Shown one piece after another: positions 7,417 to 63,382 of a stretch of 64,000 nt of DNA (the first letter of the stretch is position 1; every line of letters begins with the position of its first letter). This DNA comes from Janibacter terrae NBRC 107853. Lineage in GTDB: Bacteria; Actinomycetota; Actinomycetes; Actinomycetales; Dermatophilaceae. The translations under genes and the position numbers were made by a program. The notes under the pieces are model-generated. The model saw only the letters and a program-made list of their open reading frames with translations, was not told the DNA's origin and searched no databases. Where the stretch lies: positions 1-64,000 of the forward strand of contig NZ_BCUV01000010.1 of assembly GCF_001591405.1 (NCBI RefSeq). Reading direction: 5' to 3'.

Positions 7417-7470
7417 CTCGCTTCCCCAGCACCACGTGCTGGATTCAGCGTGTCCAAGAACCGGGGTCAG

Positions 7471-7625
7471 GCCCCGACAGCCGCTATCTCACGGCCGCGC
7501 TGAAGGCCCTGGTCGACGAGGAGGTCCACCTCTCCGCCTCGGGCACACTGCGCCCGGTCCGCTTCGAGAGCCCCACCGACCCCGACCGCGTGGTCATCGT
7601 TCAGCCGATCCGCCGGGCTCTCTGA
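7471..7625 (+). pseudogene. C-terminal fragment of a DnaN-like sliding clamp
   Basis: The frame encodes DSRYLTAALKALVDEEVHLS, a short segment, then RVVIVQPIRRAL and a stop. This matches the third domain and C-terminal strand of beta clamps (the E. coli protein ends NVKYVLDVLNALK...YVVMPMRL). The 5' two-thirds is missing and the fragment begins exactly at the IS3 end. A plasmid-borne clamp paralogue was probably cut by the IS3 insertion. The call rests on pattern resemblance only. Confidence 0.5.
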
Positions 7626-36406: not shown

Positions 36407-39400
36407 ATGACCAAGGCCGGCTCGACCCGTACATCGCTGATCGAGCGGCTGGTGAACAAGGCTGGCGGGGTGCGGTCCGAGGCGACGATCCAGTCGGACG
36501 TACGGATGCTGCTGCTCGACCCCGAGCTCGGTCTCGAAGACGACGACCTGGAGGTCCACCTCGAGGCCCAGGTCGGGCCGGGCCGGCGCATCGACGTCGA
36601 GATCGGCTGCACGGTCATCGAGGTCAAGAAGTCCTTGGCCAGCCCGTCCACCATCGCGGCCGCCACGACCCAGCTCGCGGGGTACGTCCAGACCCGTGCC
36701 CAGGAGATGGGTCGCCGCTACGTCGGGATCCTCACCGACGGCCGGCTCTGGATCGCCTTCCACGAGGTCGACGACGAGCTGGTGGAAGCGACCCGTCACA
36801 CCGCGACCGTCGGCGTAGCCGGCGCCACGGCACTCCTGCGCTGGCTCGAGGGAGTGCTGGCGACCAAGCGGGCAGTCAAGCCGACCCCGACCGAGATCGC
36901 GGACCGCCTCGGCGCTGCGAGCTCCTCGCACGCCCTGGACTACTCCACACTGGCCTCGTTGTACGCCGACAGCCGAGACCTGCCGACCGTGGTCCTCAAG
37001 CGCGAGCTGTGGGCCAACCTCCTGCGCAGCGCCCTGGGCACGCAGTTCACCGACGACGACGAGCTCTTCCTCGAGCACACGCTCCTGGTCAACAGCGCCG
37101 AGATCATCGCCCACCTCGTGCTGGGGCTCGACGCCGAGGGGCTCTCGGCCGCGACCCTGCTCTCCGGGGACCAGTTCGCCGTCGCCGGCCTGCACGGCGT
37201 CGTCGACCGCGACTTCTTCGACTGGGTCCTCGAGGTACCCGGCGGCGAAGGGTTCGTCACCTCCCTGGCCCGGCGCCTTGCCCGCTTCGACTGGTCTGCC
37301 GTCGAGCACGACGTCCTGAAGGTCCTTTACGAGTCCGTCATCTCCCCCGAAACCCGCAAGGCCCTCGGCGAGTACTACACCCCCGACTGGCTGGCCCACC
37401 GCGTCGTCTCCGAGGTCGTGACCGACCCGCTCAACCAGCGTGTGCTCGACCCGTCCTGCGGGTCCGGGACCTTCATCTTCTACGCGGTACGCCGCTTCCT
37501 GAACGCGGCCGACGAAGGGGGCCTTTCCCTCGCAGACTCGATGGGCCTTGTCTCCTCCCGCGTCATGGGCATCGACCTGCACCCCGTCGCCGTCGCCCTG
37601 GCCCGGGCCACCTACCTCCTGGCGCTCGGCCGCGACCGGCTCAACGCGAAGGACCGCGGCGTGCTGTCCGTGCCGATCTACCTCGGTGACTCGCTCGGGT
37701 GGGACCAGCGGGAGGACCTGCTGACCCAGGACCAGCTCGTCATCCCCACCGAGGTCGGCGACCAGCTCCTCTCCGGCGAGCTCGTCTTCGGGGAGCACCT
37801 GCTGGAGAACGCCGCAGCATTCGACGACCTTGTCCAAACCCTCGTCGACGAGTCCGGCCGCGCCGCCGGCAAGGCGACCAACAAACTCTCCGAGGGGACT
37901 ATCCGCCGGCTCGCGCTGACCGAGACCGACCTGCCCGACCTCAACGCCAACTTCCGCCGGCTCAAAGAGCTCCACGAGGCCAACCGGAACCACATCTGGT
38001 CGTACTACATCCGCAACGTCGCCCGCCCGGCCTGGCTCGCCCGCGAGGAGAACCGCGTCGACGTGCTCGTAGGCAACCCGCCGTGGCTGTCCTACCGGCA
38101 CATGACCGATTCGATGCAGAAGCGGTTCAAGACCCTGGCCAAGGACCGGGGGTTCTGGCACAACGAGACCACCGCCACCCACCAGGACCTCGCCGGCCTC
38201 TTCGTCGCCCGCGCCGTCGAGCGATATCTCAAGACCGGCGGCCACCTCGGCTTCGTCGTCCCCAACTCCGTCATCGACCGCGACTACTGGTCGGGCTTCC
38301 GCGCCGGGCGGTTCGACGGCGCTGCGGTCACCTTCACCGCCAGCTGGGATCTGCGCCGGATCCGTCCCCACCTCTTCCCCCGCGGCTCCGCGGTCATCTT
38401 CGGCGCACGCACCGCCGAGCCGGGGGCTATGCCTGGCCACGCCCTGGTGTGGACCGGGCGAGCCCCGCGCCGCCACGCCAGCACCGAAGAGGCTCTCCTG
38501 CTCCACCAGAAGGTCGCCGAACTGGCGATCGGCGCCGAGGACGACCAGAGGTCGCCCTATGCCTCCCGGTTCAGCCAGGGCGCGAACCTTGTGCCGCGGG
38601 TGCTGTTTCGGGTCGAGCCAGCCAAAACGACCTCGCTCGGGGTGCCCAGCGGCCGCGCGGCGGTGCAGTCCAAGCGCTCGGTCAGCGAGAAGAAGCCGTG
38701 GAAGGAGCTGCCCAACCTGGAAGGGACCGTCGAGACCCAGTTCATCTGGCCGGTGGCCCTCGGCGAGCAGGTCGTTCCCTTCGTCATGCGCGAGCCCGAG
38801 CAGTTCGTCATCCCGCTCACCCAGAAGGGCGAGGTCCTCGGCGGTGACCACCCCAGCATCGACGGCTACCCAGGGCTCGCCGATTGGACCCGCAAGGCTG
38901 AAGAACTATGGGAGCTACACGGCAAGTCGAAGTTGAGGCTGGATCAACAGATTGACCACATGAGCAAGCTGTCCCAACAGGTACCTTGTCCTCCGGTCCG
39001 AGTGGTGTACGCCAAAGCGGGTATGCACGTCTCCGCTGCAGTGATTGACGACCCCCGCGTGATCATCGACCACAAGCTCTATTGGGCCGCGGTCTCCACT
39101 CTGGCTGAGGGCCACTACCTCGTAGGGATTCTCAGCGCGCCGGTGCTCACCGAGCTGGTCCGACCGCTGATGTCGTACGGCAAGGACGAGCGCGATATCG
39201 ACAAGCACGTGTGGAAGCTGCCGATCCCCACCTTCGACCCAGGGGTCGAGCTGCACGCCGAGATCGCCACCCTCTCGGCCGAGATCGCCCAGGAGTTCGC
39301 CGACCTCGAGTTCGACACGACCAACTTCGTCACGATCCGCAAGCAGTTGCGCGCCCGGATCCTGGCCAGCGAGACGGGGCAGCGCCTTGATGTCCTGGTC

Positions 39401-40093
39401 GCGCGCCTGCTCGACGTCGACGCTGCCGCGGCCGAGGGAGTGGCCGCCGACCAGCAGCACCCGCTGCTGATCCGCACCAACTCCTCCGCCATCCCCGATG
39501 CGGCCGACGTCGAGATAGACGTCGACTGCGAGTTCGACGCCGAGGGCCGGGTCTACCTCTGGGGTGCCTTGGTCTCCCGCGGCGATGACGAACCGGCCTA
39601 CACGCACTTCGTAGACGCCTCAGCGGAGGTCGACGAGACCGCGCTCACCGAGCAGTTCGCCGCCTGGCTGACCGACCTCCTTGACCAGGAACAGTCGACC
39701 GGGCGATCGGTGTCGTGGTTCCACTACGGCCACGTCGAGACCACGCACCTGTCCCGGCTGCTGCCGGCGGCGGACGCGCAGCCCTTGATCGGGTGCGCGG
39801 TCGACCTGCTCGCCGATGTCGTCCGTCCGGGCTTCTACGCGCCTACCGGGTACGGGCTGAAGCACCTGGCGCCGGGTGCCGGCGCGAGGTGGCGCACCGA
39901 GGGCGCGACCGGCGCCGACACCCTCGGCTGGGTCGAGCAGGCCCGGGCTGGTCAGCCTGGGATGTGGGAGAAGTTGGTCGAGTACAACGAGGACGACACC
40001 CGCGCCACGCTGCTGCTACGTGCTGCTCTGCGGGGGGCCGGGCCGGTGGGATGGACCCTGGAGCCTCACCAGGACGGGTCGAGCGCGACCTGA
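36407..40093 (+). CDS. fused nuclease / N6-adenine methyltransferase / RNase H-like protein (1228 aa)
   Basis: Three parts. Residues about 20-120: PD-(D/E)xK-type nuclease (RRIDVEIGCTVIEVKKS). Residues about 320-640: adenine methyltransferase with motif I VLDPSCGSGTFIF (347) and motif IV VGNPPWLSY (555). A probable target-recognition region follows to about 1000. Residues about 1030-1228: RNase H-like exonuclease domain of the kind found at the end of TM0106-type RecB nucleases (EIDVDCEFD, YGLKHLAPG, LVEYNEDDTRATLLLR). The first two parts make a type IIG-like restriction-modification enzyme; the third is unusual. No partner gene lies beside it. Probable plasmid-borne defence against phage or foreign DNA. 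Confidence 0.8.
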   Translation: MTKAGSTRTSLIERLVNKAGGVRSEATIQSDVRMLLLDPELGLEDDDLEVHLEAQVGPGRRIDVEIGCTVIEVKKSLASPSTIAAATTQLAGYVQTRAQEMGRRYVGILTDGRLWIAFHEVDDELVEATRHTATVGVAGATALLRWLEGVLATKRAVKPTPTEIADRLGAASSSHALDYSTLASLYADSRDLPTVVLKRELWANLLRSALGTQFTDDDELFLEHTLLVNSAEIIAHLVLGLDAEGLSAATLLSGDQFAVAGLHGVVDRDFFDWVLEVPGGEGFVTSLARRLARFDWSAVEHDVLKVLYESVISPETRKALGEYYTPDWLAHRVVSEVVTDPLNQRVLDPSCGSGTFIFYAVRRFLNAADEGGLSLADSMGLVSSRVMGIDLHPVAVALARATYLLALGRDRLNAKDRGVLSVPIYLGDSLGWDQREDLLTQDQLVIPTEVGDQLLSGELVFGEHLLENAAAFDDLVQTLVDESGRAAGKATNKLSEGTIRRLALTETDLPDLNANFRRLKELHEANRNHIWSYYIRNVARPAWLAREENRVDVLVGNPPWLSYRHMTDSMQKRFKTLAKDRGFWHNETTATHQDLAGLFVARAVERYLKTGGHLGFVVPNSVIDRDYWSGFRAGRFDGAAVTFTASWDLRRIRPHLFPRGSAVIFGARTAEPGAMPGHALVWTGRAPRRHASTEEALLLHQKVAELAIGAEDDQRSPYASRFSQGANLVPRVLFRVEPAKTTSLGVPSGRAAVQSKRSVSEKKPWKELPNLEGTVETQFIWPVALGEQVVPFVMREPEQFVIPLTQKGEVLGGDHPSIDGYPGLADWTRKAEELWELHGKSKLRLDQQIDHMSKLSQQVPCPPVRVVYAKAGMHVSAAVIDDPRVIIDHKLYWAAVSTLAEGHYLVGILSAPVLTELVRPLMSYGKDERDIDKHVWKLPIPTFDPGVELHAEIATLSAEIAQEFADLEFDTTNFVTIRKQLRARILASETGQRLDVLVARLLDVDAAAAEGVAADQQHPLLIRTNSSAIPDAADVEIDVDCEFDAEGRVYLWGALVSRGDDEPAYTHFVDASAEVDETALTEQFAAWLTDLLDQEQSTGRSVSWFHYGHVETTHLSRLLPAADAQPLIGCAVDLLADVVRPGFYAPTGYGLKHLAPGAGARWRTEGATGADTLGWVEQARAGQPGMWEKLVEYNEDDTRATLLLRAALRGAGPVGWTLEPHQDGSSAT

Positions 40094-41984: not shown

Positions 41985-42016
41985 GAAGAGGTGGCCGCCG
42001 GCCGAGATTGTGGAAG
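41985..42016 (-). promoter_or_regulatory. backbone promoter motif, copy A
   Basis: On the minus strand CTTCCA-N17-CACCTCTTC, then CA-N3-GTGAG, 45 bases before the ATG at 41939. Same spacing and boxes as copies B, C and D. The 17-base gap suits -35/-10 promoter boxes. Confidence 0.7.
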
Positions 42017-46766: not shown

Positions 46767-48968
46767 TCAGGTCAGATCCCCCAAGATCGACTCTTCTTCG
46801 TCGACGGGGATGGGCTTGCGCACCATGAACGGCTCGTCCTCCGGCACGGCCTCGGTGCCGTCGTCGACCCCGACGTTGGAACGCCAGGCGATAAGCGCCA
46901 GACCGGGGTCGTCGGGGTCGGGCGAGGGTTCTTCCTCCACGACACCCCAGCTGCCGTCCTCGAGTTCGATGAGGTCGCCGGGATTGAGCTCGTAGGCACC
47001 GGCCACCTGCTCCGGCTCGGCGTAGCCGGCGAACTCGTCGAGCTCGACCTCGCCCGGACCGACATCCGCGCTGGTCCCGCCGACGGCGTGCAGATGCCGG
47101 CGCGCTCGGGCCCCTTCCTCGGCCTCGCTCTCACCAGGGATCCGCTGCTGACCGACCCTCAGCACGGCGACCGGGGAGGCCGCGACGCGGCCATCGACGG
47201 GCTCTTCGCTGCCCCGGTGGAGAGGGTCGAGGTCTGGGCGTTCGTCGGCGTAGTGCCAGGCAGCGCTGACGTAGTCGTCGAAGGTCGGGATGATCTCGAC
47301 ACCGGTCTCGGGGTCCAGGGTGGGCCGAGGCACCTCGATGACCAGGCGCGGGTGTCGTCGCTCGGTGGGACGCACCGAGTCGATCAGCGCGCGCTCCTGG
47401 GTGCCGTCGGCGGCATCCATATCGGGGAAGCGGAAGAACTGCGCCTCCACCGGTTGCCCCTCGTGGCCGGTGACCATGCCTCGTTGGCGCATCGAGCGCG
47501 GGATCGCGACGCCGGTGGCTGCGTTCTGCCACATCATCACCGCGCCCTGTGGGTCGAGGCGGCCCACACTCATCCGGAAACCGAAGTTGGACCGAGCCTC
47601 ACCACCGCCGGCCCCGCCGCCGCCGAGCAGCGCGACGTCTGGGCGTTGCATCGCCACGACCAGGTGGATGCGTGCGGTGCGAGCCAGCCGCAGCAGGGAT
47701 CCGATCTGCTTCAGGGTCGGCGGCTTGTTCGCCTTGCCCGACTTCACATCGGGATACCAGGCCAGCAGGTTCTGCACGAGCTCGGCCAGCTCGTCGATGA
47801 CGACGACGAGAGGCTCGAAGTCGCTGATCTTGGCCCGGCCAGACTTGATCAGCGTGTAGCGCTCGTTCATCACGCGCTCGGCGGCGTCGATGACGGCGAC
47901 CTGCTCCTGGATGGAGGTCGCCACCATCTGCACGTTGGGCCAGTCCCGGAAGGCAAGGAACTCGATCTGCTTGCCGTCTGCGATCCACACCGGCCACCCG
48001 TGACGAGTGACCTCGGCCAGAAGCGCGTGCATCGTCGAGGTCTTGCCGGTGCCGGTGCCGCCGCTGATCAGGACCTGGGGCAAGATCGCCGGCGCCCACT
48101 CGACGATGTTCTGATCCTCGTCCATACCGACCCGAAAACGCACCCGGCCGTAGTCGGCGAGCAGGTCCTCCCCCACCTCGGGCGAGTCCTGGGGGATCCA
48201 CAGGCTGGTCGGCAGCGAGGGCCGGCGCTCGAAGCGAACCACGTCACCGGAGAGGTCCCACTTGGCCCGCCAGCGCTCGGGCTGGATCGTGGTCACACGG
48301 CTCTCGATGGCCCGGCGGATCGCCGGCTGAGCGAAGCGCGTGGGGTCCTCGTGCGCGGCGTCCAGCGCGACCAGGTGCCCCTCCTCGTCGAAGGCGACCC
48401 CGGCGATGCTGCCGGTCTCACCGAGGAGCTTGAGCACCGCGTCCTCGAGCCTGCGCTGCTCACGAGGCCGTTCGTCGACAGCACCGGGCTTTAGGCGCGT
48501 CGGGGCGAGCAGGATCCGACGGCGGGGCCCGTCGATGCTCTCGATGACGAACTGCTCACCCAGACGGGCCGAGACGGCCTCGGTGAGCCGGGCGCGCCAC
48601 TTGGGGTCGTAGTCGGCCTGGTGCGCGACGTAGGACAGGGTGATCGTCGAGATCTCCCGGCCGGAGTACCCGACCTTGACCATCTTGCGGGAGGGCCCGC
48701 CGATCAGCGGCGCCAGAGTCGTCGCGAGCGAGTCGCGGACGCGCTGCCTCTCCCAGGAACGTCGACCCTGGATGAAGGTGGTGGCCCCGAGGACGGCGCC
48801 CCCGGCCAGCGCCGGGACGTCCCATCCCGGGTAGCCCACGATCGGCAGCAGCCCCCAGCCGGCCACCCCGGCCCCGGCGAGCAGGCCTGCCTGCTGCCGG
48901 TAGTTGCGGGGCGGCTCGCGGAGCAGGTCGTACTGGTCGGCATCGCTGGAGCGCTCGACGAGGTTCAT
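46767..48968 (-). CDS. FtsK/SpoIIIE-type DNA-translocating ATPase, conjugative coupling protein (733 aa)
   Basis: Two hydrophobic segments near residues 25-60 (QAGLLAGAGVAGWGLLPIVG), then the ATPase: Walker A ISGGTGTGKTSTM (about residue 302), Walker B LVVVIDELAEL (about 384), and VVAMQRPDVALLG. The tail is acidic. This is the TcpA/TraB-like coupling protein of Gram-positive conjugation. I use the ATG at 48968, only 6 bases after motif copy B, so translation may be leaderless. Confidence 0.88.
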   Translation of the reverse strand: MNLVERSSDADQYDLLREPPRNYRQQAGLLAGAGVAGWGLLPIVGYPGWDVPALAGGAVLGATTFIQGRRSWERQRVRDSLATTLAPLIGGPSRKMVKVGYSGREISTITLSYVAHQADYDPKWRARLTEAVSARLGEQFVIESIDGPRRRILLAPTRLKPGAVDERPREQRRLEDAVLKLLGETGSIAGVAFDEEGHLVALDAAHEDPTRFAQPAIRRAIESRVTTIQPERWRAKWDLSGDVVRFERRPSLPTSLWIPQDSPEVGEDLLADYGRVRFRVGMDEDQNIVEWAPAILPQVLISGGTGTGKTSTMHALLAEVTRHGWPVWIADGKQIEFLAFRDWPNVQMVATSIQEQVAVIDAAERVMNERYTLIKSGRAKISDFEPLVVVIDELAELVQNLLAWYPDVKSGKANKPPTLKQIGSLLRLARTARIHLVVAMQRPDVALLGGGGAGGGEARSNFGFRMSVGRLDPQGAVMMWQNAATGVAIPRSMRQRGMVTGHEGQPVEAQFFRFPDMDAADGTQERALIDSVRPTERRHPRLVIEVPRPTLDPETGVEIIPTFDDYVSAAWHYADERPDLDPLHRGSEEPVDGRVAASPVAVLRVGQQRIPGESEAEEGARARRHLHAVGGTSADVGPGEVELDEFAGYAEPEQVAGAYELNPGDLIELEDGSWGVVEEEPSPDPDDPGLALIAWRSNVGVDDGTEAVPEDEPFMVRKPIPVDEEESILGDLT

Positions 48969-48974
48969 ACCCGT

Positions 48975-49006
48975 GAAGAGGTGCCCCTCGCAGGCCTTCC
49001 TGGAAG
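48975..49006 (-). promoter_or_regulatory. backbone promoter motif, copy B
   Basis: CTTCCA... boxes as in copy A: minus strand CTTCCA-N17-CACCTCTTC, then ACGGGT and the ATG of the FtsK-like gene. The GTGAG extension of the other copies is replaced by GTATGA here. Confidence 0.7.
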
Positions 49007-51303: not shown

Positions 51304-51571
51304 GGCGGGCCTCCTTGGTTCGGGATGAGCGGGCGTGCGCGACCCAGATGCCGGCAACCACCAGGACTGCCACGACGACGAGTCGGCGAAGGTCCAGCCC
51401 CGCGTCGAGGAATGGCACCGGGAGCAGGCTCGCCTCGGCGCCGACCAGGACCTGCTTCTCGAGCAGCCACCCCCGGACGGCCGCACGGACAGAGGGGAGC
51501 AGCGCGGGCAGGAAGAAGACCGCGAGGAAGAGCAGCAGCAGCTTGCTGGTGGCGTCCTCGTCCTGATTCAT
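51296..51571 (-). CDS. small membrane protein (91 aa)
   Basis: Two hydrophobic helices: KLLLLFLAVFFLPALLP (residues 10-26) and LVVVAVLVVAGIWVAHA (about 66-82). ATG overlaps the whiB stop (ATGA). May be an accessory of the transfer channel. Confidence 0.6.
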   Translation of the reverse strand: MNQDEDATSKLLLLFLAVFFLPALLPSVRAAVRGWLLEKQVLVGAEASLLPVPFLDAGLDLRRLVVVAVLVVAGIWVAHARSSRTKEARRG

Positions 51572-51831
51572 GCCGCCACCGGGGAGAAGGACGCGCTCTG
51601 GTTGACCGCCCGTGACCGCTCGTCCCGATCGGTGCCACCCCAGATCCCGAACTCGGGCTCGCCGTCCGCGTGCTTCTGGATCGCGAACTCGGCGCACGCT
51701 TGGAGCAGCGGGCACCCGGAGCAGGCCTTCTTCGCGGCGCGCTTGTCGCGGCGCAGCTCGGAGAACCACAGGTCCGGCTGCTGGGAGCAGGGGAGCTCGA
51801 TCGTGTGCTTGCTCTGCGGGTTGGGCCTCAT
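51568..51831 (-). CDS. WhiB-family Fe-S transcriptional regulator (87 aa)
   Basis: Four cysteines in WhiB spacing (PCSQQPDLWFS, then KACSGCPLLQACAEFA) bind a 4Fe-4S cluster; GIWGGTDRDER is the family turn and basic region. The ATG at 51831 has AAAGGAGG upstream. It is the first gene after promoter-motif copy C and probably regulates plasmid genes together with a sigma factor. WhiB proteins are restricted to actinobacteria and their phages. Confidence 0.92.
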   Translation of the reverse strand: MRPNPQSKHTIELPCSQQPDLWFSELRRDKRAAKKACSGCPLLQACAEFAIQKHADGEPEFGIWGGTDRDERSRAVNQSASFSPVAA

Positions 51832-51858: not shown

Positions 51859-51890
51859 GAAGAGGTGCAGCCCGTGGCCGATGTTGGAAG
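51859..51890 (-). promoter_or_regulatory. backbone promoter motif, copy C
   Basis: Minus strand CTTCCA-N17-CACCTCTTC followed by ATCAGTGAGAGG, 27 bases before the whiB start. Confidence 0.7.
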
Positions 51891-52222: not shown

Positions 52223-53812
52223 CTACTGGTAGCTGACGTGGACGTGATCCTTGTGGAGCAGGGTGTCCCCCGAGGTCGGGGCGTAGCGGGTGTACGGCCG
52301 CCACCCCTCGGAGTCTCGGTCGACCGACCAGATCTTGACGTCCCAGATCACGTACTTCACGCCGAGCTCCTGGGCGTGCTTGCGGGTCCACTGCGCCAAC
52401 TGCCAGCCTCGTTCCCGGCCGGCGGGCGTGCTGTAGGCGGGGATCATGAAGTCGACAGCCATCCCGGACCCGTGGTCGGAAGGTCCCTGCCGCTCCCCCA
52501 CCCCGTACATCGTCTCGACCCAGTCGAAGGACCCGCTGGTGCAGCGCAGGCCCCTCAACGCCACGGGCTGGAGCCCCTTCTCGGCGCTGCTGCCGGAGGC
52601 CTGGCAGCTCCCGGGGGCGCCCGGCATTCCCCGCACGACCTGCTCCCCATCGCAGCCAGCAGCGCTTCCGTCGCTTTTGGCCAGGGCGGCGGCCAGCGCC
52701 GGGTCGTCGGTGATCTGCGAGACCAGCGTGACGGCCTCGTTCCAGGACTTGGCGTAGTGGTTGGCGTCGGCGTTGCCCTGGGTGCGGTGGGCGGCCAACG
52801 TCGGGGAGAGGTCGCGGTACCCCTTGACCTTGACCAGGGCGTCGAAGAAGAGGAGAGCCGAGGAGTAGGCGTCCATGCGTTTGTTGAGGGGCCCCCAGCT
52901 GGTCCGCTGCTGGAAGACCCCTCTGCTGTCAGGGCCGGCTATGTCGCCGTGATCGAGCTCGCGCAGGTCGGACTCCCCGATGCCGGTCATGACCCCGACG
53001 GTGGCGCTCCACTGGTCGAGTCCGCGGGTGTTGGCCGCGCGGATGATCTCCATGGCCACCCTGACCTGGTCGGCGTTGAACCGGCCGAGGGATCGGGCGT
53101 TGCCCTTGGGTGCGTCGGCTGGGTCTTCGCCGCCGGAGCTGACGTCCGCGGTGACGACCTCGATGTCAGCAGCTGAGTCTGGGTCTGAGGTCGAGACGGA
53201 GGCTGCGGTCGCGGTCCCTCCTAGCGGGGGCATCTTCACGCCTTGCTGCTTCAGCCAGGCGATGGGGTCGACGGGTTGGCCGCCGCGGTGCACCTCGAAG
53301 TGGAGGTGATTGCCGGTGGACAGGCCTGTGGTGCCCTCAACACCGACGGCTCCTCCGGCGCTGATCTGCTGGCCCTGCGTTGCGCTGATGCTGGCCAGGT
53401 GGAAGTAGCGGGTGCGGATCCCGCCCCCGTGGTCGATCTCGACGAAGTTCCCCGCGCCGGGGTCTCCGTGGACCACTGTGGCGACCTTGCCGGCCTTGGC
53501 GGCGACGATCTTCCCGCCGGAGGGGACGGTGGTCAGGTCGGCGCCGGCGTGCAGCCGCCAGACCTGGAGGACGGGGTGGAAGCGCTGCCCGAAGGGCGAG
53601 CCGTACCGGAAGGTGCCGGCGATGGGCGCTCGAGCGGGCCCGCCGCTGGCCAGGACGACGTCCTGGCCGACGGTGTCGCAGCCCTCCATCGCGTGGGCCG
53701 CGGACGTTGAGGCGCTGAAGAACGCCATGGCCGCCATGGCGATGCCGACCGGGACGGCCACGACGGCGACGAGCAGCGGTGCCACGATCATCGCGACGTG
53801 CTTGGGCTGCAT
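52223..53812 (-). CDS. multidomain peptidoglycan hydrolase of the conjugation apparatus (529 aa)
   Basis: N-terminal membrane helix (MIVAPLLVAVVAVPVGIAMA). LytM/M23 endopeptidase with HAGAD (about residue 86) and HLHFEVH (about 169). A lysozyme/transglycosylase-like middle with GIGESDLRELDHGD and GVFQQRTSWG (about 275-300). The C-terminal domain has DHGSGMAVDFMIP (about 444) and KDHVHVSY (about 521), zinc-ligand patterns of M15/VanY-like or ARB_07466-type domains. Such enzymes open the cell wall for the transfer channel (TcpG/VirB1-like role). The ATG overlaps the previous stop (TGATG). Confidence 0.85.
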   Translation of the reverse strand: MQPKHVAMIVAPLLVAVVAVPVGIAMAAMAFFSASTSAAHAMEGCDTVGQDVVLASGGPARAPIAGTFRYGSPFGQRFHPVLQVWRLHAGADLTTVPSGGKIVAAKAGKVATVVHGDPGAGNFVEIDHGGGIRTRYFHLASISATQGQQISAGGAVGVEGTTGLSTGNHLHFEVHRGGQPVDPIAWLKQQGVKMPPLGGTATAASVSTSDPDSAADIEVVTADVSSGGEDPADAPKGNARSLGRFNADQVRVAMEIIRAANTRGLDQWSATVGVMTGIGESDLRELDHGDIAGPDSRGVFQQRTSWGPLNKRMDAYSSALLFFDALVKVKGYRDLSPTLAAHRTQGNADANHYAKSWNEAVTLVSQITDDPALAAALAKSDGSAAGCDGEQVVRGMPGAPGSCQASGSSAEKGLQPVALRGLRCTSGSFDWVETMYGVGERQGPSDHGSGMAVDFMIPAYSTPAGRERGWQLAQWTRKHAQELGVKYVIWDVKIWSVDRDSEGWRPYTRYAPTSGDTLLHKDHVHVSYQ

Positions 53813-54462
53813 CAGTGGACGCCTTCGGGGGCCCGGATCGAGGAGACCCGCCAGGTGCCGTCGTCGCGGTCCGTGGTCAGCAGGACGGTCCACTGGCCGA
53901 CGTCGGTGGGGACCAGGACAGCGACCTCTTCGTCTCCGTGCCCGTCGTCTGCGCCGGAGTCCTCGCCAAGGATCAGGTGGGCCCGGCCGGTGACCTTCCG
54001 GAAGGGGACCCGCTCGGGGTCGATGCCGATCATCTCGTTGCGGCCCTGCGCTGAGAGCAGACCTTCGGTGCGTGACCACCATGTCGAGTACCCGAGCTGC
54101 GGGGACTGGGCGAGCAGGCGCATGACCTGCTCGGCCCGCTCGGGTGCTCCTCGGGCGGACTTCTTGGCTGACTGGACGGCCGACGGGTCGATCCGGTCGT
54201 GGTCGTGCCCGCTGGCCGGGCTGGTGGCGCTGCGGGGCGGCTCTGAGGTCCCGGGGTGGGGGGGGGATCTCGATGGTCCCAGGCTCGGGCTGGGGGTCGA
54301 CGACGGCTGCGCCGAGTGGGTCGGCTGTGGCCCCGACTCGTCGCCGCGTCCCAGCAGCAGCATCACGGTCAGGAGCAGCGCGAGGCACACGAGGGCGGTC
54401 ACGACCGGGCCGCGGCGGAGGCGCACGGTCGGGAGGCCTTGATGAGGTCCGGGGCGACTCAT
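53812..54462 (-). CDS. membrane-anchored T4SS accessory protein (216 aa)
   Basis: One membrane helix (VVTALVCLALLLTVMLLLG, residues 19-37), a Ser/Pro linker, then a 120-residue domain likely outside the membrane (LGYSTWWSRTEGLLSAQG, VAVLVPTDVGQWTVLLT). Coupled on both sides. The fold resembles small NTF2-like or lipoprotein modules of conjugation operons; I cannot name it. Confidence 0.65.
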   Translation of the reverse strand: MSRPGPHQGLPTVRLRRGPVVTALVCLALLLTVMLLLGRGDESGPQPTHSAQPSSTPSPSLGPSRSPPHPGTSEPPRSATSPASGHDHDRIDPSAVQSAKKSARGAPERAEQVMRLLAQSPQLGYSTWWSRTEGLLSAQGRNEMIGIDPERVPFRKVTGRAHLILGEDSGADDGHGDEEVAVLVPTDVGQWTVLLTTDRDDGTWRVSSIRAPEGVH

Positions 54463-56681
54463 GACGCCTCCTTGATCGCGGCCAGGCGCAGGGCAGCGCC
54501 GTGGGAGGCCCCGAAGGGCTCCTTGCGGGTGGCCTGTCGCTCCTTCATGGCAGCGATGAGCCGGTCGGCCTTGTCGATGTCTCGGATCTTCTGCTCGCTG
54601 AGGTCAGGGGCTTTGACCTTCGGCAGCGACGTCGGTGAGGGGGTCGAGTTGGGTGCTGGCGTCGGTGTGGGACGTGAGCTGGGTGCCGTGGTCGGGTTGG
54701 GGCTAGTGGGGGCAGGTCGGTGCCGGGGTGTCTGGACCTGCGGAGCGCGGGGCGTGGTGGATGTACGCCCGAGGTGGACGGCGGCGCCGACAGCGGCCGA
54801 GGTGAGCGGGTCGGCGCCGAGCGAGAGAGCGGTCGTGGCGACCTTGCTGGCTCCGCTGTAGCGGCCCAGCGCTCGGGCACCGACCCCGAGGTTGTGGGCG
54901 TACTCGCGACCGAAGCTGGTGGCCTGGGCGCGCTTGGCGTCGACGCGCTGCGCGGTGTCCTGGCGTGCCTGGGCAAACTTCTCCCCCATCTGGGTGCGCT
55001 TGGCGCTCAGACCGGCCTTGGCGGCCCCGTACGCGCGCGGTGCGTAGACCGGTGCGCCGACGGTGGATGCCAGCCCGAGCTTGGTCGCTGACCAGGCGAG
55101 CTTGCCGGTGCCTTTGACGGCTGAGCCCAGCGTGGAGCCGGTCGGTTGCCGTGTGGGTCCGCCCGGCAGGGTCTGCCTCTCGCCCTCGGTGGCCCCTGGG
55201 GTGTTGCCCAGCCTGCGGGTGGCCATCATCGACGCGGCCGGGCTGGCCAGGCTGGCAGCGCTGGTCACCACGCGCATCGGGCTGGCCTTGGTGGTGTCGA
55301 CCGATCGTGCCTCCGGCATCGTCTTGGACTGGATCTTCTGGCCGAGCTTCTTGCCCTGCTTCCGGGCGCGCATCACGTAGGAGGTCATGACGACCAGAGC
55401 GACGACCAGGATGCAGTCGATGAGGATGTAGACCATCCGCGGGTCCAGTCCCTCAGCGGTCATGAGGGCCTCGAAGAGCAGCAGGAAGGCGCCGATGCCC
55501 ATCAAGGTGGCGACGATGTATCCCGCGACGACGCCGACGATGCAGATGGCCGACCAGATCTCGGCGGTGCCGCCGCCGGGGATGATGGCCTTGAGCATGA
55601 CCCAGGCGGCGCGGACGGCCTCGAACATGGCCAGGGCGATGAAGAAGTTGAGGACGACTGACAGGCCCACGAAGAAGAGGACGAGCGCCCCGCCGGAGGG
55701 GTACAAGAACGCCATCCCGATGAGCCCGTTGAGGGGGTTGTCTGCGGCCTCGAGGTAGGCCTTGTTGCACTTGCCCATGTTCTTGCGTGGCCGGTCGTCG
55801 TCACCGCCGTTGACGGGATAGCCCTTCTTGAGGTCCTCGTCGTAGACCTTGACGCACTTGGTGTCCTTGTCGATGGAGGCGCCGTAGTTGATGAGCTGGT
55901 GCGGGGTGCGGATGAAGACGTCGACGAGCTTGGCGCTGGAGCGTGACTGCAGCTCCGTGGCGTCGGTGGAGTCGCTCTCGCCTCCGCTGACGATCTGGGA
56001 GGACAGGCCCACCCCGAGGTCGCGGGAGCCCATGATGAGCCCACTGTCGCCTGCGATGACCTCCATGGGACGCACGGCGGCGGTGGTCAGCAGAGATCCC
56101 ATGAGCAGCGCGATGAAGAGGCCGGCCAGCCCGGAGGCCGCCTTCCCGGTCTGGATCCACACGGCGCAGATCCCGAAGGCGATGACGGTCAGGGCTGGGA
56201 TGACCCCGATCTGCCCGATGGTCTCCTGGAGGGCCCCGGCGATGGCGGCGGCGGGGCCGCGGAGGGTCTGGAGCATCTGGAACTGCAGGGCGTAGTCGAA
56301 CAGCCACAGCGCTGTGCCGACGTAGATCCGGTAGAGCTCCCACGCGAACTGGAGGAAGGTCGCCGCGAACATGTTCTTAGGGTTGGTCACTCCCCCTTCG
56401 TCGATCGAGAGCCGGTAGGAGCTCATCGGGATGCCCTGGGAGTCCTTGGTCTGGAAGGGGCTGACCCAGGAGTTGGCGGCGCCGTCGCCGGGGTCGGCGA
56501 TCGCCAGCCCGGCGGGCAGGACCACGAGCGCGGCCAGGGCAGCCAGGCCGAGGGTTAGACGGGTCCGGTTGCGGGTCAGCCGGTTTCGGGTGTTGACCCG
56601 GGCCACCCGTCGCACCAGCGCGCGGGTCTGCGCCGCACGATGGGTCAGTAGCCCGGTCAGGAGACGGCTGGGGGCGGCCAT
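54459..56681 (-). CDS. VirB6/TrbL-like polytopic channel protein (740 aa)
   Basis: An N-terminal signal-like segment, then at least six membrane helices between residues about 130 and 440 (for example VIPALTVIAFGICAVWI, ALVLFFVGLSVVLNFFIAL, IWSAICIVGVVAGYIVATLM, VYILIDCILVVALVVMT). The cytoplasmic C-terminal 300 residues are basic and Ala/Pro/Thr-rich. Position between the VirB4-like ATPase and the hydrolase matches the inner-membrane core of FATA-type T4SS. Confidence 0.85.
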   Translation of the reverse strand: MAAPSRLLTGLLTHRAAQTRALVRRVARVNTRNRLTRNRTRLTLGLAALAALVVLPAGLAIADPGDGAANSWVSPFQTKDSQGIPMSSYRLSIDEGGVTNPKNMFAATFLQFAWELYRIYVGTALWLFDYALQFQMLQTLRGPAAAIAGALQETIGQIGVIPALTVIAFGICAVWIQTGKAASGLAGLFIALLMGSLLTTAAVRPMEVIAGDSGLIMGSRDLGVGLSSQIVSGGESDSTDATELQSRSSAKLVDVFIRTPHQLINYGASIDKDTKCVKVYDEDLKKGYPVNGGDDDRPRKNMGKCNKAYLEAADNPLNGLIGMAFLYPSGGALVLFFVGLSVVLNFFIALAMFEAVRAAWVMLKAIIPGGGTAEIWSAICIVGVVAGYIVATLMGIGAFLLLFEALMTAEGLDPRMVYILIDCILVVALVVMTSYVMRARKQGKKLGQKIQSKTMPEARSVDTTKASPMRVVTSAASLASPAASMMATRRLGNTPGATEGERQTLPGGPTRQPTGSTLGSAVKGTGKLAWSATKLGLASTVGAPVYAPRAYGAAKAGLSAKRTQMGEKFAQARQDTAQRVDAKRAQATSFGREYAHNLGVGARALGRYSGASKVATTALSLGADPLTSAAVGAAVHLGRTSTTPRAPQVQTPRHRPAPTSPNPTTAPSSRPTPTPAPNSTPSPTSLPKVKAPDLSEQKIRDIDKADRLIAAMKERQATRKEPFGASHGAALRLAAIKEAS

Positions 56682-59266
56682 CAGGCTGCGCTCCGGGACT
56701 TCGGCGGGGTGGTGAAGACGGCCGCACGGCGGGAGGGGCGTGCAGGGGGAAGGATCTTGACCAGGCCGATGCCTCCGAAGGCGTCGCGCAGGAAGGCCTC
56801 GCCGCGTCGCTCGAGCGGCACCCCTTGGTCGCCCTGGACTGGGGAGAGGTCCTCGGTGACCTTCTTGAGCATGTCGGCCCAGGCGGGGTCGTCCTCCTTG
56901 ATGCCCAGCCAGCGCAGCCCGTTGGCGGCCAGCCCGGCGTCGCGGTGACGGACCAGGACGCGGGTGGGGATGAGCCCGGCGAGAACCTCGTCATGCAGGT
57001 CACCGACGTCGTGGGTGCCGGCCAGCAGCAGCGCCTTGGGGCGGCGGCCTCGGCGCAGGAAGTGCTGGATGTCGCCGACGTTCTCGCTGTTCTGGGTGAT
57101 GTCGTACATCTCGTCGGTGACGAACGCGGCCGCGCGGGAGCGGTCGGCGAAGCACAGGCGACGGGCCAGCCGACACAGCATCCGGTAGTAGGCGCGGCCG
57201 AAGACCTTCTCGGGTGGCAGCTGCTTGAAGAGGTGCTCGTTGGACATCTCCCGGTCCGTGGGCTGCTCCATGCCGTGGGTGCGCCACGCGGTCGCGGAGA
57301 CCGTCAGATCCACCGGCGGCAGTGAGTCGTCGAAGATCACTCGAGCGACCCCGGTCTTGGTCCAGTTCCGCATCGCCTGGCCGAGCTGACGCGCCAGGCG
57401 ACGGTCTTCCTCGTCGGGCAGGTCGCACCCGCCGTCGGCGAGGTGAGCGCACAGCTGGGCGCTGCTGGTGATCTGGTGCCCCTGGAGGTAGGTGGCCTCG
57501 GTGACCTGCCCCAGGACGACTCCCAGCCCGCCTGTGGTGTCGATGTTGAGCAGCTGGACCAGGAAGGTCCGCAGCACGTCCCCGGCCTGCTCTGCCGGCA
57601 GCGTCATCAACGGGTCCATAGTCACTTGGGGGTCCATGGCGTCGACGACCTGGTGGGACTCGAAGGTGCGTGCGAAGACGGCCCACTCGCCGTCTTCGGA
57701 CTTGTCGATGGCCCACCACTGGCCGCCCTTGTCGACCAGGTCGGAGGCGCAGGTCTTGAGCAGCACGCTCTTCCCGGCTCCCATCTCCCCGACGGCCAGG
57801 ATCGCCCCGGAGACGTCGAGCTCGGGGTAGCCGGCGAGGTCGACGTGGACGACCTGGGGCCGGGAGGTGCCCTTGTTCAGTGCGAACGCGGCACCCCTTT
57901 GCCCGCCGAGCTGGTTGCCGACGAACGGGACGAGCTTGGAGAAGTGCTCCGAAGAGGTGAACTGGGCGTAGGTCTTGATCATCGGGGTGCGCGGCGATCC
58001 AGGCTGCATCCCCCACCACAGCTCGCTCTGGTGCCCGGCGATCCGCTCGAGCCGCATCCCCACGGAGTCCTTGAGGGTCTTGGTCAGGGCGTGGGCGTGC
58101 TCGTCGACCAGGGACGTCAGCTCGGCATCGCTCTGCTCGGGGCTGGTCCGGGCCACCCCGAGGGCGAAGAGCATGGTGTGCTCGACCTCGACCTCGAGCT
58201 TGTCGTCGGCGAAGATCTTGTCGTACTCGGTGAGCAGCTCGGCGGCCAGCCGAAGGTCGTGCAGGCCGGTGCCCTGGGCCTCTTCCTTGTCGCGGTGGTC
58301 GAACTGCTCGTTGAGGTCCTTGACGGCCTTGCGGTTGCGCGGCAGAACCTTCTCCCGCGAGTTGATCCGCAGACGGATCGCCCAGTCGACGTCATAGCCC
58401 GTCTGATCCAGGTGCAGCAGGAACTCGCTGCCCGGGAAGGTCAGGCCCCCGCTGGGCGTTTCGGCAACGGCCAGGATCGCCTGGTGAGAGGCCGGTGTGG
58501 CTGGGTGAGCGACCTTGAGGACCCGCTGCCGCAGCACGTTGACCTTGGCGAAAGCGCCGGCGTCGACCAGGTCGGAGCGAGCCCCTTCGTCCAGGACCGG
58601 CTCGGAGATCACCGCTGCAGAGACCAGGTCGGCCCCGGGGTGCATGTCCTGCGGGATCTGCGCGGGGACCGGCTCGTCGAGCATCCCGCGGCGCTGAGCG
58701 TGGTTGGCGATCCAGGCCTGCTCGGCCACCGACACCTGCCGGGGACGAAACGGTGCCGGGATCAGCGACTCGATCTGCGCCGCCTGCACCACCCGCGCCT
58801 GCACATCTGCTGGCGTCCGGTGGGCCAGAGGCACATCCAGACGGTCCTTGAAGTCGCGCCAGGCGGCACGGCCGGCCGTGGTCCATCGCTCCCAGCCGGT
58901 GTTGGCAAGAGGCACGGCCAGCCAGTGGAACCGTTCCCCCATCGGGATGTCCTCCAGAGCATCGAGCGTGGCCTCGCACTCCTCGACCCACCCGGGGGTC
59001 TGGGCCAGGTCGACGCCCTCGATCATCCGCTCGACGACCTGCACTGGATCCTCGCTGAGCATGTACGACAGCAGCAGCGCCTCACCGTCCAAGGACCGGA
59101 TCAGCAGCCGGTGGAGGTCTCTCACAGCCCGCTTGTCGGCGATCGTGCCCGAGTAGCGCAGCCCGCTCAGCCGCCACGTCGCCCACACCGTGCCCGACCG
59201 GGTCCACATCAGGTGCCCGGCCAGGTCGGTCACCGGCGAACGGCGGATCCTCATGGTCGTGGTCAT
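56681..59266 (-). CDS. VirB4-like T4SS ATPase (861 aa)
   Basis: N-terminal 450-residue domain followed by the motor: Walker A VGEMGAGKSVLLK (about residue 491), WWAIDKSEDGEW, Walker B-like AAFVTDEMYDI and a final HRDAGLAANGL segment. GAGGAGACCCGAG precedes the ATG. It energises assembly of the transfer channel. Overlaps the VirB6-like gene (TGATG). Confidence 0.9.
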   Translation of the reverse strand: MTTTMRIRRSPVTDLAGHLMWTRSGTVWATWRLSGLRYSGTIADKRAVRDLHRLLIRSLDGEALLLSYMLSEDPVQVVERMIEGVDLAQTPGWVEECEATLDALEDIPMGERFHWLAVPLANTGWERWTTAGRAAWRDFKDRLDVPLAHRTPADVQARVVQAAQIESLIPAPFRPRQVSVAEQAWIANHAQRRGMLDEPVPAQIPQDMHPGADLVSAAVISEPVLDEGARSDLVDAGAFAKVNVLRQRVLKVAHPATPASHQAILAVAETPSGGLTFPGSEFLLHLDQTGYDVDWAIRLRINSREKVLPRNRKAVKDLNEQFDHRDKEEAQGTGLHDLRLAAELLTEYDKIFADDKLEVEVEHTMLFALGVARTSPEQSDAELTSLVDEHAHALTKTLKDSVGMRLERIAGHQSELWWGMQPGSPRTPMIKTYAQFTSSEHFSKLVPFVGNQLGGQRGAAFALNKGTSRPQVVHVDLAGYPELDVSGAILAVGEMGAGKSVLLKTCASDLVDKGGQWWAIDKSEDGEWAVFARTFESHQVVDAMDPQVTMDPLMTLPAEQAGDVLRTFLVQLLNIDTTGGLGVVLGQVTEATYLQGHQITSSAQLCAHLADGGCDLPDEEDRRLARQLGQAMRNWTKTGVARVIFDDSLPPVDLTVSATAWRTHGMEQPTDREMSNEHLFKQLPPEKVFGRAYYRMLCRLARRLCFADRSRAAAFVTDEMYDITQNSENVGDIQHFLRRGRRPKALLLAGTHDVGDLHDEVLAGLIPTRVLVRHRDAGLAANGLRWLGIKEDDPAWADMLKKVTEDLSPVQGDQGVPLERRGEAFLRDAFGGIGLVKILPPARPSRRAAVFTTPPKSRSAA

Positions 59267-60116: not shown

Positions 60117-61211
60117 TTACTCCTTGGGTGTGGTGTTCCCCGCCGAGGCCTCGGCGGTGGTCTGGAAGGTCCCGTCGATGGCGGTGATCTCCCACCGACC
60201 GTCGCGGGCGGTCAGGGTCAGGGGCCACGACGCAGTGCGCTGACGCGCCACCTGGCTGCCCTCCCCCGGCTCAACGAGGCGGACTACGACCAGCGCCTGC
60301 AGCACCTGCCCCTCCTGCGGGGCCTGCCCGCTGCGCAGGTTCTCCACCCGCTCGGTGACCCGCACGTCCTGAACCGTCGTCAGTTCGTACTGCGCCTCGG
60401 CCGAGACAGCCTGCAAGGACGAGCCCGGAGTGACGTACCGGGCCACGTCTCCATCCCCGGTCAGATAGGCACTCATGAACGCCTGGAGACTCTCGTTGAC
60501 TGCGCTGCCCGACGGCACGCTGACGGTGTACGGCGAAGGAGGGACGGCTGCCGCCGGCGGAGCCTGCACGACCGCCGGAACGGCCTTGACCGAAGCCGCT
60601 GCGTCGCCAGCTCCCCCGTCGACCTGAACCGGGACCATGTAGAAACGCCGGCTCGGCTGCCCCTTCGGCGGGGCCACCGTCGCCGTGACCGTCACGGCCC
60701 ACACCCCAGGCGCCGTGGCGACCGCATCGACGACACGAACGTCCGTGGCAGTTCCGGCGGTCTTCGGCAACTCAACCGGCCCCGGCCACCACGCCCGCAG
60801 GTCCACGGCCCGGGAGGCTGGCGTCGTCAACCACGCCTGCACCCAAGCGGCCGCCTGCTCCGAGGCCAGGGCGCGCCGAGCGATGCTGTCGCGGGTGACC
60901 TCCGGCTTGGCCTGAGCCACCGGCGCCGTGTCGTCCCCCAGGACCTGCCGGCCCAGCGCGATAGGCCCAGCTGCAACCGCGCCCATGAGCAGCAGCGACA
61001 GACCCCGGGTCAGTATCGCGCTCCCCGTCGTCCACCGCTCCTGTACCGCGGGCGACGGCGCGCCCGCCTTCGTGCGGCGCCATCCCCACGCTCGGCTCGG
61101 GCGGTCCTCGACGTCGAGACGGTCGGGGTCGGCGGGCCCCGCCAGAGACCCGCCGAGCCCCGGCCGCGTTCCCTGTTCCCCCTTCGCGGGCCGCGTCAGC
61201 AAACCCTTCAT
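60117..61211 (-). CDS. TcpC/VirB8-like conjugation protein (364 aa)
   Basis: About 60 cytoplasmic residues, one membrane helix (LTRGLSLLLMGAVAAGPIAL), then an extracytoplasmic region of two NTF2-like domains (WVQAWLTTPASRAVDLRAWW; LQAFMSAYLTGDGDVARYVT ... WEITAIDGTF). This is the TcpC arrangement. It scaffolds the channel with VirB6 and VirB4. Coupled upstream by ATGA. Confidence 0.82.
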   Translation of the reverse strand: MKGLLTRPAKGEQGTRPGLGGSLAGPADPDRLDVEDRPSRAWGWRRTKAGAPSPAVQERWTTGSAILTRGLSLLLMGAVAAGPIALGRQVLGDDTAPVAQAKPEVTRDSIARRALASEQAAAWVQAWLTTPASRAVDLRAWWPGPVELPKTAGTATDVRVVDAVATAPGVWAVTVTATVAPPKGQPSRRFYMVPVQVDGGAGDAAASVKAVPAVVQAPPAAAVPPSPYTVSVPSGSAVNESLQAFMSAYLTGDGDVARYVTPGSSLQAVSAEAQYELTTVQDVRVTERVENLRSGQAPQEGQVLQALVVVRLVEPGEGSQVARQRTASWPLTLTARDGRWEITAIDGTFQTTAEASAGNTTPKE

Positions 61212-61408
61212 CGCGACCGCTCCTGCAGCCGACCCATCGCCTCACGCGCCTCGTCGACCCGGCCGCTGCGCAGGTAACGCTCAACAGCCTCGACACCACC
61301 GAAGTGCGGTGCGTCGATACCGCGGCGCAGCACGCCGTCCAGCTCCTCACGCACGCTCCGCACCCGGGCTGCGTCCATCAGCCGTAGCTGGCTCTCCTCG
61401 CAGGCCAT
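61208..61408 (-). CDS. small helical protein at the head of the T4SS operon (66 aa)
   Basis: ATG at 61408 with GAGGAGAACCCC upstream. Helical and charged (RVRSVREELDGVLRRGIDAP, VERYLRSGRVDEAREAMGRL). First gene after promoter-motif copy D; may be regulatory. No family recognised. Confidence 0.6.
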   Translation of the reverse strand: MACEESQLRLMDAARVRSVREELDGVLRRGIDAPHFGGVEAVERYLRSGRVDEAREAMGRLQERSR

Positions 61409-61444: not shown

Positions 61445-61476
61445 GAAGAGGTGCCCCGTTGCGGCGGTCCTGGAAG
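61445..61476 (-). promoter_or_regulatory. backbone promoter motif, copy D
   Basis: Minus strand CTTCCA-N17-CACCTCTTC followed by ACCTGTGAGAGG, 36 bases before the first gene of the T4SS operon. Divergent from the sigma-like gene at 61651. Confidence 0.7.
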
Positions 61477-61650: not shown

Positions 61651-62370
61651 ATGTACCAGACCATCGACACAGACCTCGATCGCCAGATCACCGACGAGTG
61701 GGCCAGCGCCTACGCAGACCAGCCACTCCCCCACGAGTGGACGGTCATCGACCCGACGCTTGCCGCTCTTCCCACCCTGGGCCACCTGCTTGACGCCATG
61801 GGCCCGCGCGGTGCGCTGGCCGACAGCGACCGCGTCTACCTCGCCCTGATCACCCGCGCCCAGGCCGGTGAGGCGATGGCGGGCAGGGTCCTGCTTCAGC
61901 GCCTCCAGCCGCGCTGCCGCCAGCTCTTCGGGACCGCCGCGAAGCGGGGCCTGGATGACGTGGCTGCCAGCGCCTACGCCGCCGCCTGGTCCGCGGTCAT
62001 GACCTATCCGCTGACCCGCACGACCAAGGTAAGGATCAACCTGTCCATGAGGGTGCTCAACGCCATCCCGGACGCTCACGAGGAGCCCACGCCCATCGCA
62101 GCCGACGACCTTGGACCGAGGATTGCCGACGACGCACCCGTGAGCGCGACCTGCGAGGCCGCTCGCCTCCTTCTCTGGGCGCTCGATCACGACGTCATCT
62201 CCCAGGACGAAGGGGCGCTGCTCTACCGCGCGACGCTCGACGCCAGCGCCTCGATCAACGCCGCTCTCACGGAGATCGCTGCCGAAGAGGGAGTGACCAG
62301 CCGTGCCATGCACGGTCGGTACTCCCGCGTGGTCGAGAAGATCACCGCGGCCGTTCTCGAGACGACCTGA
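61651..62370 (+). CDS. sigma-factor-like protein (239 aa)
   Basis: GCCAGGAGCCAGGG precedes the ATG. The middle reads like a degenerate sigma region 2 (ALITRAQAGEAMAGRVLLQR, then AASAYAAAWSAVMTYPLTRT). The end resembles region 4 with a helix-turn-helix (ISQDEGALLYRATLDASASI, then EEGVTSRAMHGRYSRVVEKI). No anti-sigma gene is adjacent. Divergent from the T4SS operon and promoter-motif copy D. It may direct RNA polymerase to the four backbone motifs; that is inference. Confidence 0.6.
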   Translation: MYQTIDTDLDRQITDEWASAYADQPLPHEWTVIDPTLAALPTLGHLLDAMGPRGALADSDRVYLALITRAQAGEAMAGRVLLQRLQPRCRQLFGTAAKRGLDDVAASAYAAAWSAVMTYPLTRTTKVRINLSMRVLNAIPDAHEEPTPIAADDLGPRIADDAPVSATCEAARLLLWALDHDVISQDEGALLYRATLDASASINAALTEIAAEEGVTSRAMHGRYSRVVEKITAAVLETT

Positions 62371-62416
62371 CTCCCCTGCCACCACCACTGGACTGAAGGT
62401 CTGGCTGCAAGCGCCT

Positions 62417-62649
62417 CATATGTCACCGCATATGTGTGCTCATATGCTTCCGTCTATGCCGCTTCGTATGTGTCCCCAGATGTGCCCCCCTATGCGCGTG
62501 CATCTGTGAGGTCATATGGCGCGGCATATGTGGCCCTTCTGCGTCTTCGTCTGCTTGCTCATATGCTTCCCCACCTGTTGCTGCGTCTGTTTATGCATAT
62601 GCCGCCGCATATGTGTCCTCATCTGCATCTTCTGATGTACCGTCATCTG
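62417..62649 (+). repeat. 12-bp-spaced iteron array 1 (20 units) before parA, candidate centromere
   Basis: Hexamers start at 62417, 429, 441, 453, 465, 477, 489, 501, 513, 525, then 536, 548, 560, 572, 584, 596, 608, 620, 632 and 644: 12-bp steps with a single 11-bp step. Units are CATATG (8), CATCTG (3), CGTCTG (2), and one each of TCTATG, CGTATG, CAGATG, CCTATG, CTTCTG, CACCTG and CTGATG. Flanking bases are free. Direct repeats upstream of parA are the usual parS of type Ib partition systems, bound by small ParB proteins. Confidence 0.88.
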
Positions 62650-62719
62650 CGTGCCCGGTTTACTTCCGATGGCGGCCTTGGATAAGCCGCCGATTGGGCA
62701 CCGGAGGGATGGGATCGAG

Positions 62720-63382
62720 ATGCCTGAGCCACAGCTCATCGTCGTCGCGGGTCAGAAGGGTGGGCCGGGGAAGTCGACGACCACAATCAACCTTGCGGCC
62801 TGCTTCGCAGCGGAGGGGGAGCGCGTCCTAGTCGTCGACATCGACCCCCAAGGCAGCGCGGTCGGGTGGGCGGAGACGGCCGGAGACGCACTGCCCTTCG
62901 ACTTCGCCGCCAGCGACGACCCCGGGCTGCTGTCATCCCTGAAGCAGGTCGACTACGACTACGTCCTCGTCGACACCCCCGGCTCGCTCGTCGAGGTCGA
63001 GAAGAACCAGGCCCTGATCCCGATCGCCGACTTCGTGGTCATCCCCTCGCTGGGGGACCCGCTGGGCATGGAGCCGCTGGCCCGTACCGTCCATCAGGTC
63101 CTCACACCGACAGGTGTCCCTTTCCGGGTGCTGCTCAACAACGTCTCCGACCGTCGGGGACCGGCCTGGCCGATCACCACGATCCACACGCTCGCCGCCG
63201 CCGGCCTCCCGTGCTTCCGGACCTACATCCGCTCCTACGTCACGCTGACCGACGCGCCCGGCACCGGGGCGGTGGTCACGCAGCTGACCGACGAGCCCGG
63301 CAAGAAGAGCGCCCGGCTCTACAAGCAGGTCGCCCAGGAGATCCGCGACATCCTCGCGGCCAACGACGGCGGCACGCGATGA
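62720..63382 (+). CDS. parA: ParA-type partition ATPase (220 aa)
   Basis: Deviant Walker [21 protein letters not shown] at the N-terminus, [25 protein letters not shown] (Walker B). Without an N-terminal DNA-binding domain it is a type Ib ParA. The ATG at 62720 is chosen; GGAGGG lies about 12 bases before it. A frame extension to 62651 would run into the iteron array. Coupled to parB by ATGA. Confidence 0.92.

Follow-up and report, generated by a model that had tools for sequence, protein, structure and literature searches.

A conjugation region with four copies of a two-box motif

The window, the whole 64,000-bp stretch of DNA analysed here, comprises bases 1-64000 of contig C10 (132,461 bp) of the Janibacter terrae genome (3.58 Mb, 11 contigs). 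On the minus strand it carries a T4SS operon, a whiB gene and a gene for an FtsK-like coupling ATPase; on the plus strand, divergent from the T4SS operon, lie a sigma-like gene and the opening of a run of Tad-pilus genes. The features of this region are as follows.

41985..42016, minus strand: motif copy A, 45 bp before the ATG at 41939; heads the gene of a 53-aa CxxC-type zinc-ribbon protein
46767..48968, minus strand: FtsK/SpoIIIE coupling ATPase (Pfam E=6e-10), target of copy B
48975..49006, minus strand: motif copy B, 6 nt before the ATG at 48968; heads the FtsK/TcpA-like (FtsK/SpoIIIE) coupling ATPase
51568..51831, minus strand: WhiB-family protein (Pfam Whib E=4e-13), target of copy C
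51859..51890, minus strand: motif copy C, 27 bp before the ATG at 51831; heads whiB and co-directional small genes down to 49493
52223..53812, minus strand: M23 peptidoglycan hydrolase of the T4SS operon (Pfam E=4e-23)
54459..56681, minus strand: large T4SS-operon protein with no Pfam match, in the place of a VirB6-like membrane protein (position as in pXCEL01)
56681..59266, minus strand: VirB4-like ATPase (AAA_10, Pfam E=2e-24), with homologues on 266 plasmids
60117..61211, minus strand: TcpC-like conjugation protein (Pfam TpcC E=5e-11)
61208..61408, minus strand: gene of a 66-aa soluble protein that by position opens the T4SS operon; other plasmids have a comparable small gene, of low sequence similarity, at this place
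61445..61476, minus strand: motif copy D, 36 bp before the ATG at 61408; heads the T4SS operon via the 66-aa gene
61651..62370, plus strand: predicted divergent two-domain ECF-like sigma protein of 239 aa (residues ~5-146, regions 1.2-2; residues 164-239, region 4), the proposed reader of the motif
62720..63382, plus strand: ParA/TadZ-like ATPase, which opens the Tad-pilus gene run

The window holds exactly four copies of the two-box motif CTTCCA-N17-CACCTCTTC, always on the minus strand and with 17 bases between the boxes; in copy A, CTTCCA is the -35-like box at the 5′ end and CACCTCTTC is the -10-like box. A sequence-only reading of this DNA had reported these copies, and our pattern scan of the window returns the same coordinates, strand and N17 spacing. 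The distance of 6-45 bases to a start codon given in that reading agrees with the distances measured above, the zinc-ribbon gene, FtsK-like ATPase, whiB and first T4SS gene that it named were all found again downstream, and the CA-N3-GTGAG extension that it attributed to three copies is present in A, C and D and missing from B. By a chance estimate, 1.5 sites with up to three mismatches are expected in the window; the four observed have none. The fifth-best match in the window (38692, two mismatches) lies inside a methylase gene.

The Tad-pilus run continues past the window, where CpaF, TadB and TadE are detected, and the Tad genes of this plasmid have no motif copy in front of them in a weight-matrix scan. 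No anti-sigma gene is recognisable beside the sigma-like gene. A small soluble protein, mostly of 66-112 aa, opens the T4SS operon in all 13 replicons inspected (the window and 12 others), with low mutual similarity and no known family; that it could be a feedback or anti-sigma partner is a guess only.

Three other features of the window were observed in passing. An array of CATATG-type hexamers, spaced mostly by ~12 bp, lies at 62400-62660 between the sigma-like gene and the ParA-like gene and could be a partition centromere; 36407-40093 encodes a restriction or defence-like protein of 1228 aa with Eco57I/N6 methylase and RNase_H_2 domains; and a tandem array of five imperfect ~60-bp units is found at about 3174-3440.

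The motif is restricted to two contigs of the genome

Across the whole genome there are six exact copies of the 15-base two-box pattern, the four in the window and two on contig C11 (20,368 bp), and one further copy with a single mismatch at C10:75167-75198 on the plus strand. The exact copies outside the window are:

C11:10533-10564, minus strand: exact motif copy
C11:16737-16768, plus strand: exact motif copy, followed after 6 nt by an in-frame GTG, as copy B is by its ATG

The remaining nine contigs hold no copy, an exact-sequence search did not find the motif in 187 other genomes of the family, and the reversed pattern, used as a control, occurs nowhere in the genome. In a weight-matrix scan the seven sites score 25-28 and the best of all else scores 18.9, a gap of about 6 bits. 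Given the restriction to C10 and C11, the absence from the other family genomes and this separation in score, we reject a chance repeat or coding coincidence.

We found no overlap between contig ends that would join C10 and C11 as one plasmid. Relatives of the gene behind the C11:16737 copy are found on pXCEL01 and a Nostocoides contig, where those replicons' own motifs head them, and on both of these the T4SS shares the replicon with that relative. A second dispersed two-box word, CTACGT-N18-CTACTC, unrelated to the motif described here, is present in four copies: C10:25742 (plus), 109721 (minus) and 115247 (minus), and one on C11.

The divergent gene encodes a putative ECF-like sigma factor

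By itself, the protein encoded at 61651-62370 has no Pfam and no PHROG match, and a PLSDB search with it returns one distant plasmid relative. Whole-genome searches reveal four homologues in the family (whose genomes include Nostocoides sp. F2B08, Tetrasphaera australiensis and an Intrasporangium MAG). Across the order they reveal twelve strong homologues, and most lie on contigs of plasmid size; homologues number about 22 overall, with plasmids as their main location. Among 18 members of this protein family, Pfam at E<=1 detects the region-4 entries Sigma70_r4_2 in nine and Sigma70_r4 in eight (best of the two 9e-6), and Sigma70_r2 in one (4e-5). When the family profile is compared with PDB sequences, the top matches are ECF sigmas, specifically 5or5 (E=0.0015, over region 2) and CnrH (E=0.0076, over both domains).

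Structure prediction provides a second line of evidence. The single-sequence fold of the protein is poor (pLDDT 53.7), and AlphaFold with an eight-sequence alignment yields a model with a pLDDT of 75.9. Searched with Foldseek and VIA-align, this model returns almost exclusively sigma factors, at weak Foldseek E-values (best 0.014) and at Z values that helical models can reach by chance. Residues 5-146 of the model superimpose on sigma regions 1.2-2 over ~100 residues at 3-4 A, and residues 164-239 on sigma region 4 (SigD, Taq region 4) over ~60-70 residues at 2-4 A. Residues 142-164 have a pLDDT under 50 and the model places no domain between regions 2 and 4, which predicts that a folded region 3 is missing. 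The region 2 and region 4 features of an ECF-type member of the sigma-70 family are thus found by both profile and model; although the single scores are modest, what makes the assignment persuasive is that two independent approaches, one by sequence and one by structure, concur for both domains. The sequence-only reading had suspected a divergent sigma-like protein here and proposed comparing its predicted structure with sigma factors. The family profile and the alignment of the model with regions 1.2-2 and 4 bear this out, and together they strongly support placing the 61651 product in a family of divergent, two-domain ECF-like sigma factors.

Other replicons have the same arrangement with motifs of their own

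Seventeen other replicons carry a two-box element that shares this geometry but not this sequence, placed ahead of the T4SS operon, the FtsK-like ATPase or both; in some of them it also heads the whiB and Tad-pilus operons. FtsK homologues in most related replicons are preceded by the replicon's own motif. The repeated gapped-hexamer scan used here is unbiased in that no information on sigma genes was supplied to it; the motif of pKRAD01 emerged with the scan centred on the sigma-divergent region. The motifs it returned on pXCEL01, pKRAD01, G537 and the Brachybacterium-type replicons are present in the intergenic region divergent from the sigma gene and rank with the strongest words of their replicons. 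Plasmid pXCEL01 of Xylanimonas cellulosilytica has 12 convincing sites of the form GGTCAC-N17-CACCTTCC, some of them heading FtsK, whiB, a pilin-like gene and the operons of the T4SS and the Tad ATPase. On pKRAD01 of Kineococcus radiotolerans, GTCACA-N16-CACCTAC has seven sites, including those at FtsK, a gene beside the sigma gene and whiB. Seven sites of TGTCCG-N18-[AC]CCTCTTGT are found in G537, and two Brachybacterium plasmids and a sister replicon have seven each of GTCACA-N15/16 followed by (G)CGGTA. Smaller motif sets occur in the Nostocoides contig, the T. australiensis chromosome, G018 and G352. In five cases, our own replicon, G537 and the three Brachybacterium-type ones, no word elsewhere on the replicon outdoes the best one of the sigma-divergent intergenic region.

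Five plasmids, pAP13, pLMV7, pBD2, one from Curtobacterium and one from Microbacterium, were picked solely by their VirB4. In all five, a member of the sigma family is divergent from the T4SS, and a two-box element is common to the T4SS and FtsK promoters; it takes the form TGTCACAG...GAACCTCCTCTCTT in pBD2 and is present in three exact copies in pLMV7, before Tad, T4SS and FtsK. In replicons treated by this paired comparison of promoters, the motif was chosen partly by eye. Several replicons fit the arrangement less well. G204 and G220 have two copies each, the box spacing is variable in G025 and G102, and in G352 the motif stands before FtsK and none was found beside the sigma gene. In G219, G257 and G449, neither an FtsK gene in the stretch nor a motif was found; a weak word in G257, GATGTTC-N17-CACGTA, has three copies away from the sigma gene and was left out. 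In T. australiensis Ben110 the sigma gene and motif are chromosomal (L018, L023, L032-L035), which suggests an integrated conjugative element of this plasmid family.

To compare elements within and between replicons, we scored each sigma-divergent region of 17 replicons against each FtsK upstream region by its best two-box match; some of these replicons are related and hence not all independent, and pCPRO01, whose stretch has no FtsK, was left out. The top score of 15 is reached by 10 of 17 own pairs and by 0 of 272 cross pairs, and the own-pair scores add up to 244, where 219 would be expected (permutation p about 1e-5). Because own pairs beat cross pairs, the element is common within a replicon and different between replicons. 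The sequence-only reading had expected the motif in plasmids with homologues of these genes: the exact sequence is absent from them, and in its place each has an equivalent motif of its own ahead of these genes. Among the relatives searched, the motif sequence is private to this genome; the architecture is not.

Some further words were seen on these plasmids. On pXCEL01 (NC_013531.1), seven copies of ACCAAC-N15-ACCACC at 1842-8011 and 82833-85333 form a second regulon-like element, and on pLMV7 (NC_022599.1) TTGCAC-N13-CATGTA occurs 11 times, mostly towards both ends of the linear plasmid. Comparison by eye of the region-4 recognition helix with the -35 box pairs Arg-x-Arg with GTCAC, Trp/Tyr with TGTCAG and, in the protein described here, His-Gly-Arg with CTTCCA; these independent cases are too few for a claim.

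A proposed sigma regulon for plasmid transfer

From sequence comparison and the structural model, we consider it highly probable that the motif is a core promoter read by the plasmid-encoded, divergent ECF-like sigma (61651-62370), which would coordinate the transfer genes. In this mechanism, CTTCCA would be the -35 element, contacted by sigma region 4, and CACCTC(TTC) the -10 element, melted by sigma region 2; initiation would follow a few bases past the -10 element, in or near GTGAG, and the messages from copies B and C11:16737 would have little or no leader. A holoenzyme with the plasmid sigma would transcribe all its targets together, namely the T4SS and whiB operons, the FtsK-like coupling ATPase and several small genes, which would place transfer competence under a single switch. 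The analysis establishes the motif and its restriction to these replicons, where it stands and which genes it heads, the sigma-like fold, and an arrangement conserved among replicons that each use a motif of their own; we infer that the sigma associates with RNA polymerase and reads the motif, where transcription starts, and that conjugation is coordinated as a result.

Co-occurrence by itself would also fit another conserved DNA-binding protein. The motif might be the operator of a different plasmid regulator, either an activator or a repressor, with the real promoters nearby and read by sigma-A, and the sigma-like protein might be incidental or a degenerate, non-sigma DNA-binding protein. 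Dimeric regulators also typically use two-box sites of fixed spacing, and in pLMV7 and pXCEL01 the sigma-linked word is not the only strong repeated one. However, the boxes are neither inverted nor direct repeats and the sites are directional. Six of the seven sites have no TANNNT, the -10 element of sigma-A, in their surroundings, and at copy B and C11:16737 the start codon follows the motif after only 6 nt, which leaves little space for another promoter. In addition, the sigma family is the only regulator family identified at this place in all of the plasmids. We regard an operator as unlikely.

Considerably less likely still is a WhiB regulon, in which the reader of the motif would be WhiB (51568-51831), acting by itself or together with a host sigma. 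WhiB proteins act by binding sigma region 4, and whiB is headed by the motif in the window, pXCEL01 and pKRAD01, but six motif-bearing replicons (the two Brachybacterium plasmids and their sister, G537, pAP13 and pLMV7) have neither a WhiB homologue nor its cysteine signature, and this rejects WhiB as a general reader. Of the plasmid-specific sigma/WhiB regulon put forward by the sequence-only reading, the promoter and the sigma gene are thus strongly supported and WhiB as the mechanism is not; WhiB may be a feedback or timing element of the regulon. That the repeat is a DNA element for transfer or replication (oriT, centromere, iteron) or a coding coincidence is scarcely credible: the motif is restricted to two plasmid-like contigs, but its copies are dispersed, always point into the downstream gene and are nearly always intergenic, and its equivalent on other plasmids has the same placement and a different sequence.

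Relation to known systems

A motif-reading sigma at this locus would resemble the ECF (group IV) sigmas, such as CnrH, SigH and E. coli sigma-E, in which a linker without a region-3 domain connects regions 2 and 4, and which use two-box promoters of constant spacing; both profile and model match them. It differs from them in its strong divergence, in ~50 extra N-terminal residues that resemble region 1.2, in that no adjacent anti-sigma gene is recognised for the 61651 family and in that its targets are conjugation genes. Many ECF sigmas are autoregulated, whereas in all 12 replicons checked the strand of this family's sigma gene has no copy of the replicon's motif; with no promoter of its own type, the input to the regulon would lie upstream of the sigma.

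Already known are alternative sigma factors as a kind and one family member annotated as sigma-70. This protein, HS347_RS00240 of Rhodococcus erythropolis pBD2 (profile E 4.5e-46), is a 'sigma-70 family RNA polymerase sigma factor' in RefSeq; like 61651 it is divergent from the same T4SS and accompanies a two-box element common to the T4SS and FtsK promoters, unlike 61651 its promoter motif has a different sequence, and beyond the database annotation our literature search located no functional study of it. Tn916 Orf7 and UviA of pIP404 are likewise sigma-like proteins encoded by mobile elements and thought to drive the element's own genes, but these are Firmicute elements. The SetCD activator works with a host sigma. 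In SXT/R391 elements SetCD is a single element-encoded master activator that coordinates dispersed transfer operons (PMC4344509); the window plasmid would also use one element-encoded regulator, here proposed to be the sigma itself. A review of Gram-positive conjugation mentions a sigma factor only for the phrI gene of ICEBs1 (PMC6540685).

A literature search of open-access papers found no description of how conjugation is regulated in the large actinobacterial plasmids that carry a T4SS (Micrococcales, Kineococcus, Rhodococcus and others), or of such a regulon. We lean towards the view that conjugative plasmids of actinobacteria include a widespread family in which each plasmid has a private sigma with a promoter code that has diverged from one plasmid to the next, keeping the transfer programmes of co-resident plasmids orthogonal. 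One sigma regulon would then unite the T4SS with the coupling ATPase and, in several plasmids, with WhiB and the Tad pilus as well. If this is true, one gene would be the transfer switch, the sigma-promoter pairs would be usable as orthogonal expression parts for high-GC bacteria, and these plasmids would offer a natural series of such pairs, with both partners diverging, that would inform how region 4 picks its -35 sequence.
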